A stretch of 64,000 nt of DNA from Cerasicoccus arenae (GTDB lineage Bacteria; Verrucomicrobiota; Verrucomicrobiia; Opitutales; Cerasicoccaceae), in assembly GCF_014651635.1 (NCBI RefSeq), contig NZ_BMXG01000002.1, forward strand, positions 186,001-250,000, in the 5' to 3' direction. Of this stretch, positions 24,981-30,908 are shown in pieces. A program made the position numbers and the translations under genes. Below the pieces are notes generated by a model. That model made no database searches. It was not told the DNA's origin and was given only the letters and a program-made list of their open reading frames with translations. How positions within the stretch are numbered: the first letter of the stretch is position 1; each line of letters starts with the position of its first letter.

Positions 24981-25057
24981 TGGTGGGAGTAACTGGGCTC
25001 GAACCAGTGACCTCATCGATGTCAACGATGCGCTCTAGCCAACTGAGCTATACCCCC
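24981..25057 (-). tRNA. tRNA-Val (anticodon GAC)
   Basis: 77 nt including an encoded 3' CCA. Read on the minus strand the acceptor GGGGGTA pairs with TACTCCC (one G-U), the D arm has GCTCAGTTGG, the anticodon stem CATCG/CGATG encloses TTGACAT (anticodon GAC, Val), and the T arm ACTGG-TTCGAGC-CCAGT is intact. It probably shares a transcript with rpmH. Confidence 0.97.
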
Positions 25058-26965: not shown

Positions 26966-27463
26966 TCAAGCTTTAACCTCCATTCGGCGAAGCCGGATGG
27001 TCTCAAACTCGGGGTAGTCCAGCAGGCGTTCGGTCGGCTCGAACAAGTCCTCGAAGACAGGCATCCAGGCGTCACCGGGGGGGGTGAGCTTGACGCGGGT
27101 TAGGAGTAACTCGGCGCAGCGGGGGAGGGTCTGGCGATAGATTTCTCCGCCACCAGCAATGAAGATTTGACGGTCGCCCGGGTCAAAGGCTTCCAATGCA
27201 TCGAGGGAGCGAATGAGGGTGGCACCGGGGAGGTCGTCAGGCTGGGCGGTGCGGGAGATGACGATGGTTTCGCGGCCGGGGAGGGGGCGGCCAATGGAGT
27301 CCCAAGTCTTGCGCCCCATGACGAGGACATGCCCCATGGTTGTACGCTTGAAGAATTTGAAGTCCTCCGACAAGCGCCACGGGATGGTGTTGCCGTTGCC
27401 GATGACACGGTTTTCTGCCATGGCGGCGATGGCGATCCAGTTTGGAAAGGGGGGGGGGGTCAT
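26966..27463 (-). CDS. folA: Dihydrofolate reductase with a C11 tract in codons 2-5
   Basis: Reduces dihydrofolate to tetrahydrofolate (family knowledge). 165 aa with the DHFR motifs IAAMAENRVIGNGNTIPWRLSEDFKFF (catalytic acid Asp34), VMGRKTWDSIGRPLPGR, and the GGGEIYR loop near 104. The ATG (27461-27463) overlaps the TGA of the upstream MotA/TolQ-like gene as ATGA, so translation is likely coupled. The first codons are ATG ACC CCC CCC CCC, an 11-C run immediately after the start; a second C8 run falls at codons 127-129. Length change of the first run would frameshift the whole enzyme, unless coupling from another frame rescues it. Confidence 0.95.
   Translation of the reverse strand: MTPPPFPNWIAIAAMAENRVIGNGNTIPWRLSEDFKFFKRTTMGHVLVMGRKTWDSIGRPLPGRETIVISRTAQPDDLPGATLIRSLDALEAFDPGDRQIFIAGGGEIYRQTLPRCAELLLTRVKLTPPGDAWMPVFEDLFEPTERLLDYPEFETIRLRRMEVKA
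27077..27084 (-). repeat. C8 tract (coding strand) in folA codons 127-129
   Basis: Plus-strand G8, encoding Thr-Pro-Pro on the minus strand. Confidence 0.9.
27449..27459 (-). repeat. C11 tract (coding strand) in folA codons 2-5
   Basis: Plus-strand G11, directly after the folA start codon, encoding Thr-Pro-Pro-Pro. Confidence 0.95.
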
Positions 27464-27861
27464 GTGCGGAATTCCGGAGGCTGAGAATGAAACTCTGCTT
27501 TTTTGCTTATTATATAGACCAGCAGCAAGACTCCGATGATGGTGCCAATGGGGAAATGAATGAGCCAAAAAATGGCGAACACGATCAGGAATTTAAAGAA
27601 CCATGGGGCTCGGTAGCTTGAGTGAAAAAATGCGATGGCGAGGAAAATGAGGCCAATCAATCCCATGATTAATCCCATGGCGGTCGTTGTAATGGCAATA
27701 CTGATATTGTTGGCTAATGCCTCGGGGTTTCCCATGCCAGACGCTTCAATATCCTGAAACGCGCACACCATGCCGTAGACAGTTCCCAAGAGGCCGAAAA
27801 CTGGCCCGATCTGCAGCCAAGCTCCGATGAGGGCGAGAGTTTTGCCAGGTTGATGATTCAT
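27460..27861 (-). CDS. Small MotA/TolQ/ExbB-like membrane protein
   Basis: 133 aa from the ATG at 27861 (MNHQPGKTLAL). Three hydrophobic helices at about 10-32, 50-75 and 84-118. The motif GPVFGLLGTVYGMVCAFQ followed by ALANNISIAITTTAMGLIMGLIG resembles the proton-channel core of MotA/TolQ/ExbB proteins, but the protein is shorter than usual, lacks the large cytoplasmic loop, and has no TolR/ExbD partner beside it. Its stop overlaps the folA start (ATGA). It is divergent from the EIIA/cyclase gene, with 172 bp between them. Confidence 0.72.
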   Translation of the reverse strand: MNHQPGKTLALIGAWLQIGPVFGLLGTVYGMVCAFQDIEASGMGNPEALANNISIAITTTAMGLIMGLIGLIFLAIAFFHSSYRAPWFFKFLIVFAIFWLIHFPIGTIIGVLLLVYIISKKAEFHSQPPEFRT

Positions 27862-28033
27862 TGTGGTGTGCGGGAGATGATCATTAGGGTGTGGCCAGTG
27901 CTGGCAATGGAAATTACGATGCGGTGCATTTTTCCCCAGTTTTCGGGTGGTTCCGAAGTTAATAACTTGCTGAATACCAAACAAAAGGGTTGTCAGCTGG
28001 GCCATTCTGCCCCATTGTGTATAAAACTCCTTT

Positions 28034-29392
28034 ATGCGACTCGACCGGTATATTTCCAAGTCCCGTATCATCGATATTGTGAGCGGGGACCTGGAGGGAG
28101 CGCTCAAAGAATTGCTCGAAGTTTGCAAGCTTCCTGAGGAAGTTGGTATGACTAAAAAGCAACTGCTCGGAGTGCTCATTGAGCGCGAGCAGACGATGAC
28201 CACCTACTTGGGTAGTGGTATCGGTCTGCCGCATGTGCGCATACCGATGAAGCGACCCTATCAATTTGCGATTGGGCGTTGTCCGCGTGGGCTTGAGTTT
28301 GATGGGCATGACGAATATCGTGACCTACGGCTGGTTTTTCTGCTTTTGGCCTCGGAGAAGGAGAAGTCCTACCTGAATGTCCTGGCCTCATTAGCGCGCA
28401 CATTCCAAGAGCCCGGTGTGGTCGAGAAAATGACGCACTCCAAGGACATTATTGCCCTGCGAGAGTCCGTCACCGCGACCTTTGGCGGTAGTGGCGCGAA
28501 ACAGGGGACCAAGGACAACAAATTTAACCGTTTAATCCTCAAGGAGGCGGTCAAGGTGGCCAAGGGCTCACAGAGTTCGGCTATCATGGTCTTTGGTGAC
28601 ACTTTCATCGGTGGTGTTGATTTGACCGAGTCCTTTGACGGGATGAAGACGATCCTTGTCACTCAGTCGGCTACGGAGGCCTCCTTTGACAGTAAAACGG
28701 TGACGGCTATCATCCCCGCACGTTCTTTTGGGCACAACCGCTTATCGCAGTTGCGGAGCGCGATGTTGATCGGGCTGACGCGTGGTATTATCAAGCACAA
28801 TGAGCGCCTTTGCTGTGTTGGTGGACTGCCGCAGAGCAACCAGTTCGACACGCTTGTGGTTGTGGATGTGGAGCGCGAATTTCAAAGCGTGCTGACGCGC
28901 CAGACTGATATGCTGCCCGCCGCAGTAAAACCAGAGGTTTTGGAGCGTGTGCTCGGAATTGCGACCGAGTTGTCGGTGGAAGGTCGTGAGGGTAAACCCG
29001 TCGGCGCGCTTTTTGTGCTCGGTGATTCCCAGCAAGTCCGCCCGCATACGAAGCAGCTCGTGCTAAACCCATTTTTTGGCTACGAAGAGGAAGAACGCAA
29101 TATTCTGAACCCCTTCATGGACGAGACGGTGAAGGAGTTTTCCCTGTTGGATGGTGCTTTCATTATCCGAGGCGATGGTGTGCTGGAAGCTGCCGGTACG
29201 CTCATCCACGCTAACGAACTTCCCCAGCAACTACCCAGTGGGCTGGGCACGCGTCACGCCGCCGCTGCTTCGATCTCTATGGCCACAGATTGCATTGCGC
29301 TGGTGGTGTCCGCCAGCACTGGCCAGGTGACATTGTTTCGCCGCGGCCAGATGCTGCCGTTGATTGAGCGCAATGCCAGCCGCGACCTTTAG
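28034..29392 (+). CDS. PTS EIIA (type 2) - pyruvate-kinase-C-like - diadenylate cyclase (DAC) fusion
   Basis: 452 aa. Residues 1-150 form a fructose-type PTS IIA domain with phosphorylatable His67 in YLGSGIGLPHVRIP. Residues about 163-295 look like a pyruvate-kinase C-terminal-type alpha/beta region (AIMVFGDTF, ILVTQSAT). Residues about 300-445 carry the marks of a DisA_N/DAC domain: Asp373-Gly-Ala in LLDGAF and GTRH at 405-408, where DisA and CdaA have RHR but here RHA. DAC domains make cyclic di-AMP from two ATP (known). The combination implies that second-messenger synthesis or binding responds to PTS phosphorylation; this is inference, and activity with RHA is uncertain. No signal or membrane segment, so cytosolic. 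An OprB porin gene follows by 112 bp. Confidence 0.78.
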   Translation: MRLDRYISKSRIIDIVSGDLEGALKELLEVCKLPEEVGMTKKQLLGVLIEREQTMTTYLGSGIGLPHVRIPMKRPYQFAIGRCPRGLEFDGHDEYRDLRLVFLLLASEKEKSYLNVLASLARTFQEPGVVEKMTHSKDIIALRESVTATFGGSGAKQGTKDNKFNRLILKEAVKVAKGSQSSAIMVFGDTFIGGVDLTESFDGMKTILVTQSATEASFDSKTVTAIIPARSFGHNRLSQLRSAMLIGLTRGIIKHNERLCCVGGLPQSNQFDTLVVVDVEREFQSVLTRQTDMLPAAVKPEVLERVLGIATELSVEGREGKPVGALFVLGDSQQVRPHTKQLVLNPFFGYEEEERNILNPFMDETVKEFSLLDGAFIIRGDGVLEAAGTLIHANELPQQLPSGLGTRHAAAASISMATDCIALVVSASTGQVTLFRRGQMLPLIERNASRDL

Positions 29393-29504: not shown

Positions 29505-30908
29505 ATGAAAAATTTTATCGCTTGGCGTCCCCTAAGACGTGTGAGTCTGCTATGTCTGATTTCGGCGGTTAGCCCCGCCTTTGCCGCCTATACTCAATAT
29601 GCAGCGACTGCGGAAGAACGGCACGATGAGATGATGACGTATTTTGACGATCACATCGAGCCGACCATCCCCGATTCTCTCGATACATGGTGGAGCTATA
29701 AGTACATGCTGGGAGATGGCTACTATCGGGATGATCTCGCCAAAGAAGGCATTACGTTGTCCCTGAAGTTCGTGACAGATAGCATGGGGAATGTGTCAGG
29801 TGGTGCTCGGCAGGGCTTCACTTATACTGGTTCCATGGGCTTCGACATGGATGCCGATTTAGAGCGTTTGGTGGGGATTCCGGGGGCGGACTTTTACGTC
29901 TCGGCGGTCTGGCGCTCGGGGGTTAGTTTATCCAATCGCTATATCCACAACGTCTTCCAGACCCAGCAGGTGTACGGTGGGCAAAATCTCCGACTCTACG
30001 CGTTTTACTGGCGACAAGAACTCTTCGAGGACCAGTTAGAGGTCAAGCTGGGCCGCATTGCTCAAGGGGACGATTTTCTCTCTCGGCCGATTTACTGGAG
30101 CTACGTTCAGAACGCGTTCGACGGCAATCCGGTGTCGATCTTTCTGAATTCTCCAATGTATGCCTATCCGAATGCGACTTGGGGCGCGTTTTTTAAGTAT
30201 ACCCCGAAACAGGCACCTGTTTACGCACAGGTTGGCGTCTATGGCGGTGCCAAAAAGCCAGCCCAAAACCGTAACAGCGCCCACGGTCTGGACTGGAGTT
30301 TTGATTACGAAAACATCTTTATCATTGGGCAGGCTGGGTGGACGCCGGAGCTTACGATTGGGAATCAAGAAGGGCTGCCAGGCAATTACTCGATGGGCGG
30401 TTATCATGTAATCGATGATCACCCTACATTCCTACAACCGCCGACCATTGCAGGACTTCCGAAAACGGTTCGTAAGGCTGATGGACTCTGGGGCATGTAC
30501 TGGATGGTCGACCAAATGGTCTACTCGAACGGCGTAAATTCGAGCGGCAATAAGACCGGTATTACGCCATGGTTTACAGTCAGTCTCGCTCCAGACGAGC
30601 GGGTCAACAAGATGCCTTTATCATTTTATGGTGGTATCCGCTTTGATGCGGTTTTACCAAGTCGTAAGGATGACTTCCTCGCACTGGGCTATGTCTATGG
30701 CAAGTTCAGTGACGATTTCCGAAAGTCTCAAGTAATCGCGGGCTTGTCACCGCAGAATTTCGAGTCAGTTGTCGAGCTAACCTATATGATTCAGGTTAAC
30801 CAATGGCTAACGTTTCAACCCGACATTCAGTATATCATTAATCCTGGCGCAGCAGGCAAGTTTGGCGATGCCCTGGTGCTGGGTTTCCAGTCCTCCGTGC
30901 AGTTTTAA
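29505..30908 (+). CDS. OprB-like carbohydrate-selective porin
   Basis: 467 aa from the ATG at 29505, where a signal peptide begins (basic MKNFIAWRPLRR, hydrophobic core, cut after SPAFA at 27). The mature part has the OprB pattern: a helical start (WWSYKYMLGDGYYRDDLAKEGI), then long strand-rich segments with KLGRIAQGDDF, and a C-terminal strand ending SVQF. OprB porins let mono- and oligosaccharides cross the outer membrane (known). Placement after a PTS IIA-containing regulator suggests sugar uptake under its influence, but no promoter evidence links them. Confidence 0.85.
   Translation: MKNFIAWRPLRRVSLLCLISAVSPAFAAYTQYAATAEERHDEMMTYFDDHIEPTIPDSLDTWWSYKYMLGDGYYRDDLAKEGITLSLKFVTDSMGNVSGGARQGFTYTGSMGFDMDADLERLVGIPGADFYVSAVWRSGVSLSNRYIHNVFQTQQVYGGQNLRLYAFYWRQELFEDQLEVKLGRIAQGDDFLSRPIYWSYVQNAFDGNPVSIFLNSPMYAYPNATWGAFFKYTPKQAPVYAQVGVYGGAKKPAQNRNSAHGLDWSFDYENIFIIGQAGWTPELTIGNQEGLPGNYSMGGYHVIDDHPTFLQPPTIAGLPKTVRKADGLWGMYWMVDQMVYSNGVNSSGNKTGITPWFTVSLAPDERVNKMPLSFYGGIRFDAVLPSRKDDFLALGYVYGKFSDDFRKSQVIAGLSPQNFESVVELTYMIQVNQWLTFQPDIQYIINPGAAGKFGDALVLGFQSSVQF

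Follow-up and report, generated by a model that had tools for sequence, protein, structure and literature searches.

Does the phosphotransferase system (PTS) control the synthesis of c-di-AMP in Opitutales? The signals that control c-di-AMP synthesis are still poorly known, and both systems are usually treated as separate, even if both act on potassium. The question is raised by one gene within a 64,000-nt stretch of Cerasicoccus arenae DNA (contig NZ_BMXG01000002.1; hereafter the window, to which coordinates refer unless a locus is given). Its product combines a PTS EIIA domain, a middle domain resembling the C domain of pyruvate kinase (PK-C) and a diadenylate cyclase (DAC) domain. Since a signal-receiving domain and a cyclase share one polypeptide, the kinase chain is identifiable and only a single DAC is present, a link between carbon status and c-di-AMP becomes testable. 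Our answer, held with moderate confidence, is that a mainly regulatory PTS phosphorylates His67 of the EIIA domain, thereby tunes c-di-AMP synthesis and links phosphoenolpyruvate (PEP) supply to ion homeostasis.

Gene, domains and predicted structure

The gene is a single unbroken open reading frame (ORF) with an ATG start (Table 1). Both its start (MRLDRY) and its full length are conserved in essentially all sampled Opitutales. Dozens of independent genomes share this start and the entire architecture, which rules out an assembly or start-codon artefact, and with identities down to approximately 30% such recurrence is far beyond chance. A preceding sequence-only reading had proposed the three domains, and all of them score above the Pfam cut-offs: PTS_EIIA_2 (PF00359) with E 3.6e-17 and 63.1 bits against a cut-off of 27, DacZ_P with E 9.7e-16 and 58 bits against 27.4, and DAC (PF02457, formerly DisA_N) with E 1.3e-22 and 80.1 bits against 27. 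The match to DisA_N was a point on which that reading had staked its claim beforehand. CdaA_N, the transmembrane region before the DAC domain, was not matched in the Pfam search of the window protein.

Table 1. Coordinates of the cyclase gene, its parts and its neighbor in the window, and of antiporter-borne EIIA domains at other loci
Feature	Position	Strand	Evidence
EIIA-DacZ_P-DAC gene, predicted diadenylate cyclase, very probably DacD-type, 452 aa	28034..29392	+	ORF, Pfam, conserved start and length
PTS_EIIA_2 domain, residues 30-142	28121..28459	+	Pfam; fold match to EIIA-Ntr 2a0j
His67 codon, predicted phospho-acceptor, GIGLPHVR	28232..28234	+	Alignment to PH motif of PtsN structures
DacZ_P domain, residues 163-284, pyruvate-kinase-C-like fold	28520..28885	+	Pfam; fold search
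DAC domain, residues 314-439, predicted diadenylate cyclase	28973..29350	+	Pfam; CdaA/DisA fold matches
DGA catalytic motif, residues 373-375	29150..29158	+	Sequence; 49-sequence alignment
GTRH motif, residues 405-408, then Ala	29246..29257	+	Sequence; 49-sequence alignment
OprB carbohydrate-selective porin, neighbor gene	29505..30908	+	Pfam E 1.7e-71; synteny
Na_H_Exchanger-TrkA_N-PTS_EIIA_2 fusions (Opitutales)	L184:11-2062, L185:2624-4720, L202:3-1811, L203:472-2718, L204:317-2584, L205:203-2503, L206:317-2584		

A full-length AlphaFold2 model was built from 49 Opitutales sequences (mean pLDDT 80.2, pTM 0.56), in which the domain folds are usable, but not the placement of the domains relative to each other. 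Compared against the PDB with Foldseek, its N-terminal part matched EIIA-Ntr 2a0j (E 1.7e-8, TMt 0.83), while its C-terminal part matched CdaA and DisA structures (E about 1e-7), a likeness to DisA that had been expected from the sequence. The middle domain, folded alone (pLDDT 80, pTM 0.77), gave exclusively pyruvate kinases as its 50 highest-ranking PDB hits (lowest E 1.4e-5, TMq 0.59–0.68), in agreement with the PK-C-like segment recognized earlier.

The EIIA domain had been assigned to the fructose type. It does fall into the EIIA_2 family; however, the NCBIfam models for fruA (39.9 bits) and PtsN (TIGR01419, 38.0 of 138.7 bits) both scored below their cut-offs, and EIIA-Ntr ranked first in the PDB profile and fold comparisons. 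The fused EIIA is not clearly fructose-type. The proposed phospho-acceptor His67 is present within YLGSGIGLPHVRIP and aligns with the PH motif of PtsN structures.

On the opposite strand, an ORF of the MotA/ExbB family (27460-28203, -) overlaps with the 5' end of the cyclase gene. This overlap probably reflects an ORF start placed too early, as an internal Met precedes LALIGAWLQ. The Rfam scan of the window yielded a tRNA gene (24984-25057, -) as its sole match and no c-di-AMP riboswitch.

Distribution of the fusion

The fusion is the standard, and usually the sole, DAC of Opitutales and not an oddity of a single genome. In a set of 388 genomes from the phylum, full-length homologues occur throughout the order Opitutales at 37–94% identity, and six further ones from other classes (G004, G035, G160, G248, G319, and G384) share 30–35% identity. 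Named matches that give a group in their title belong to Opitutales/Opitutia (Lacunisphaera, Opitutus, Pelagicoccus, Cephaloticoccus, Oleiharenicola, and Puniceicoccaceae); the other named matches are titled only Verrucomicrobia or Verrucomicrobiota. Outside the phylum, a plasmid search gave only partial matches, either to archaeal DacZ or to EIIA-like stretches, and no NCBIfam model specific to the fusion was found when the window protein and 49 relatives were scanned.

Profile scans were extended to 62 Opitutales genomes. A DAC was detected in 56 of them and exactly one in 55 of these 56, the window's genome included, where the fusion is the sole DAC. The only genome with two, G410, carries in addition a CdaA-type protein (CdaA_N and DAC, 398 aa; L195:834-2030), the gene of which lies directly downstream of a DHH-phosphoesterase-like ORF, as read by eye.

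Besides the fusion, forms without EIIA occur. EIIA is absent from the DAC ORF in G403, G415, G416, and G425, while G420 has a DacZ_P-DAC-like separate gene only. In addition, separate DacZ_P-DAC-like proteins of approximately 300 aa, lacking EIIA and carrying GLGSRHLAAAA, were observed (L044:4005-4616 and L194:946-1677), and in G173 such an EIIA-less protein coexists with the fusion. An apparent 818-aa version in L039 was rejected: the additional residues come from an open frame that runs antisense to other genes, and the actual protein is an EIIA-less DacZ_P-DAC. At four loci from genomes of 0.8–0.9 Mb (L189, L190, L191, and L192) the cyclase lacks EIIA_2 and retains DacZ_P-DAC, and neither EI nor HPr was found in these genomes. 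This suggests that a need for c-di-AMP itself persists when genomes are reduced.

PTS gene content and conservation of His67

The profile scans detected EI in 49, HPr in 53 and EIIA-man in one of the 62 Opitutales genomes. PTS_EIIC (PF02378, the sole EIIC family scanned) was in contrast found in only six, among them the window's genome, and not in the other 56. PTS_EIIA_2 is present in 51 genomes, mostly once and then in a frame of 440–490 aa which is the cyclase. A His-bearing fusion occurs in 44 genomes (fusions of G395 and G422 split over contig ends were counted, and the His of G010 was included after a separate check), and in 32 of these it is the sole EIIA_2. Within this set of 32 genomes, EI was found in 27, EI together with HPr in 25, and EIIC (PF02378) in none. 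Since the fusion is usually the sole EIIA_2, the cyclase is the only EIIA_2 that EI and HPr could phosphorylate across most of the order. Furthermore, as EIIC went undetected in most of the 62 genomes, a regulatory PTS is more plausible than sugar sensing.

Within the EIIA domain, an alignment of 49 Opitutales sequences shows no variation at His67 or in the G-G-PH-R motif around it. However, at least four lineages have lost His67, and this restricts the claim of a PTS relay. It is replaced by Tyr in family f9 (G364, G408, and G418) and in G428 and by Ser in family f4 (G176 and G149), and in G411 the EIIA is degenerate. The loci with a replaced His67 are L045, L168, and L177 (f9), L033 and L196 (f4) and L159, and the remaining protein is conserved in each of them. 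Despite the replacement EI is present in f9 and f4, so that a relay to the cyclase must there be gone or different. The f4 genomes hold a separate EIIA of 161 aa.

Such losses would suit an EIIA that serves as a phosphorylation-independent interaction or structural module, comparable to unphosphorylated PtsN with its partners, with the cyclase outside PTS control. The intact remainder of the protein in f9, f4, G428, and G411 agrees with this explanation, and so do f96 and G416, where EIIA_2 is gone and DacZ_P-DAC is retained, and six genomes that keep His67 while EI is undetected, incomplete bins accounting for only some of the latter. Yet the invariance of His67 and G-G-PH-R in the 49 aligned sequences, and the fact that in most genomes the fusion is the only EIIA_2 open to the retained EI and HPr, speak against it, and we consider it unlikely. 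Absence of EI is associated with loss of His67 or EIIA (38/6 against 6/6, Fisher p 0.013, kinship ignored). This association was not upheld in a tree-based test, whose power was too low because independent changes were few; thus co-loss was dropped as proof of function and serves as a hint only. Among the genomes negative for EI, several are bins that are small or incomplete.

Another explanation holds that the fusion serves sugar transport: its EIIA would pass phosphate to EIIB and EIIC for fructose or some other sugar, the cyclase would sense flux through that transporter, and the neighboring OprB would belong to it. The window's genome does encode a complete fructose PTS (FruB-like IIA-HPr-EI, PfkB-type kinase, IIB-IIC) with its own OprB, besides a 590-aa EI with three PEP-utilizer domains and a 100-aa HPr with HARPA and NGRSIMGL sites, and an OprB gene adjoins the cyclase gene within the window's family. 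However, a separate IIA is encoded in the fructose operon itself, a second EIIA beside that of the cyclase which makes this genome an exception to the sole-EIIA_2 pattern, and the fusion is nearly universal despite the rarity of EIIC. The OprB neighbor, which had been taken to fit sugar sensing, turned out to be weak evidence: of 84 loci, only those from the window's own family show the adjacency, in five cases out of six. In other families of the order the cyclase is flanked by housekeeping genes, DnaG-, RpoD-, and NuoA-like as read by eye, and the cyclase gene is not co-located with PTS genes. With housekeeping neighbors and a family-limited OprB, gene order gives no support to a PTS link either. 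We regard a role in sugar transport as very improbable.

Cyclase active site

The ATP site of CdaA comprises Leu (GALI), Asp (DGA), Thr-Arg-His, Ser and Glu (PMC7288161). The corresponding motifs of the window protein are GALF (residues 324-327), DGA and GTRH, both of which had been pointed out before, and Ser426. Asp373, Gly374, Arg407, His408, and Ser426 are invariant in 49 Opitutales relatives. In contrast, the third Arg of RHR and the Glu of (V/I)SEE, as found in DisA, CdaA, and CdaS, are absent from the window DAC. The third position of RHR is Ala, while A, S, T, L, N, R, M, V, and G occur among the relatives, and the second Glu of (V/I)SEE is Ser (SAS). The Ala had been singled out by the sequence-only reading; the observation holds, but with RHH in an archaeal DacZ and variable residues among the relatives it is no warning sign. 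At the same two positions an archaeal DacZ from Haladaptatus has RHH and SES, and neither the third Arg nor the second Glu is a defining feature of the DacZ-like branch. The related DacZ of H. volcanii synthesizes c-di-AMP in vitro, and at low salt a change in c-di-AMP level alters the cell volume (PMC6741144). Since the Haladaptatus DacZ carries RHH and SES and the H. volcanii enzyme is active, the variation in the active site is no sign of a dead enzyme. A catalytically dead DAC, the protein being only a nucleotide-binding sensor or scaffold, would match the two missing residues, but given that an archaeal DacZ also differs at both positions, the five invariant residues and a genome that retains a PgpH-type phosphodiesterase beside this only DAC, its chance is about as slim as that of a role in sugar transport.

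Relation to known systems

The legend of figure A1 in PMC6741144 lists a class of diadenylate cyclases named DacD, with members from Lacunisphaera, Puniceicoccaceae, Coraliomargarita, and Opitutae; the class names are attributed to Corrigan & Gruendling 2013. The window protein very probably belongs to this class, as the members listed there come from the same order and one DAC per genome is usual there, a likeness by taxa. Archaeal DacZ/DacY (CdaZ) resembles the window protein in having a PK-C-like domain followed by DAC and in similar active-site variants. The DacZ model NF041371 matches residues 214-441 (E 2.8e-33); however, with 115.4 of the 430 bits of this equivalog the window protein is related but not a member. 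Furthermore, archaeal DacZ lacks EIIA (the Haladaptatus protein comprises 268 aa with DACZ_N and DAC) and matches DACZ_N, whereas the window protein matches DacZ_P.

The regulatory PTS-Ntr (PtsP-PtsO-PtsN) is similar with regard to EI, HPr, an EIIA resembling PtsN and a permease that is undetected in most genomes, and in the proposed output to cation homeostasis. It differs in that the EI of the window's genome has no N-terminal GAF domain and in that the EIIA is fused to a cyclase. A review of PTS-Ntr mentions neither c-di-AMP nor fused forms (PMC13104625). An EIIA that sets the level of a nucleotide messenger has precedents in separate proteins and with other messengers, whereas the window protein unites both parts in one polypeptide and concerns c-di-AMP. 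In E. coli, EIIA-Glc controls adenylate cyclase. In Caulobacter, PTS-Ntr controls (p)ppGpp (PMC4848567).

The literature searched revealed no experimental work on the DacD class and no report of the EIIA-cyclase connection or of a permease-poor PTS around it. The EIIA-DacZ_P-DAC architecture itself is probably already catalogued; what is new is the genomic wiring, with EI and HPr kept, EIIC rare and the cyclase often the sole EIIA_2. The earlier suggestion of a new wiring from the PTS to c-di-AMP remains the best-supported idea, but it concerns the standard DAC of an order, whose class already bears the name DacD. If true, it would account for the retention of EI and HPr in most Opitutales, where no PTS sugar permease is detected.

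Proposed relay and ion homeostasis

Under the regulatory reading that we favor, the window protein would be a soluble DacZ-like diadenylate cyclase with an N-terminal PTS EIIA. PEP-derived phosphate would pass through EI and HPr to His67, whose phosphorylation state would shift the mutual orientation of two DAC domains and thus set the rate of c-di-AMP synthesis. Whether phosphorylation restrains the cyclase is a guess only; we suppose that it does, with a chance little better than even. The PK-C-like DacZ_P is a probable metabolite-sensing domain that may bind a glycolytic metabolite and add to this control, given that pyruvate kinase C domains bind fructose-1,6-bisphosphate (PMC6741144). The c-di-AMP formed, broken down by the PgpH-type phosphodiesterase, would adjust K+/Na+ and osmotic balance. 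In most Opitutales the PTS would be mainly regulatory with the cyclase as its principal or only EIIA output, and in some genomes EIIA would act on a cation/proton antiporter as well. Probably the relay reports carbon status to c-di-AMP and thus to the control of salt and potassium.

Apart from the cyclase, most of the EIIA_2 carriers examined are either fusions of the fructose PTS or cation/proton antiporters that contain TrkA_N. Na_H_Exchanger-TrkA_N proteins with a C-terminal EIIA_2 were found in G164 (of the window's family), G001, G039, G134, G364, and G418, with a near-identical copy of the G039 protein in G048, and all of these EIIA_2 domains retain the PH motif. The presence of EIIA on antiporters suggests that PTS outputs in Opitutales commonly concern cation homeostasis. 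This is in line with E. coli, in which the K+/H+ antiporter YcgO is bound and inhibited by PtsN in its unphosphorylated form (PMC11808508). A further reading, to which we give somewhat less than even odds, is that the Opitutales PTS was converted from sugar uptake to a dedicated signaling relay with ion-homeostasis outputs, in which EIIA is covalently attached to the only c-di-AMP synthase and sometimes to a cation/proton antiporter, so that PEP supply would be written directly into c-di-AMP and ion transport.

The antiporter proteins, with their RCK-type domain and C-terminal EIIA, represent a second fusion of EIIA to an ion-homeostasis protein in Opitutales. Two of the three f9 genomes, in which His67 of the cyclase is Tyr, possess such an EIIA-bearing antiporter. 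c-di-AMP has a known role in potassium control, and TrkA_C is a known type of c-di-AMP receptor domain. The window's genome encodes 11 TrkA_C domains and one PgpH-type protein (7TMR-HDED, 7TM-7TMR_HD, HD), the gene of which adjoins PhoH- and YbeY-like genes.
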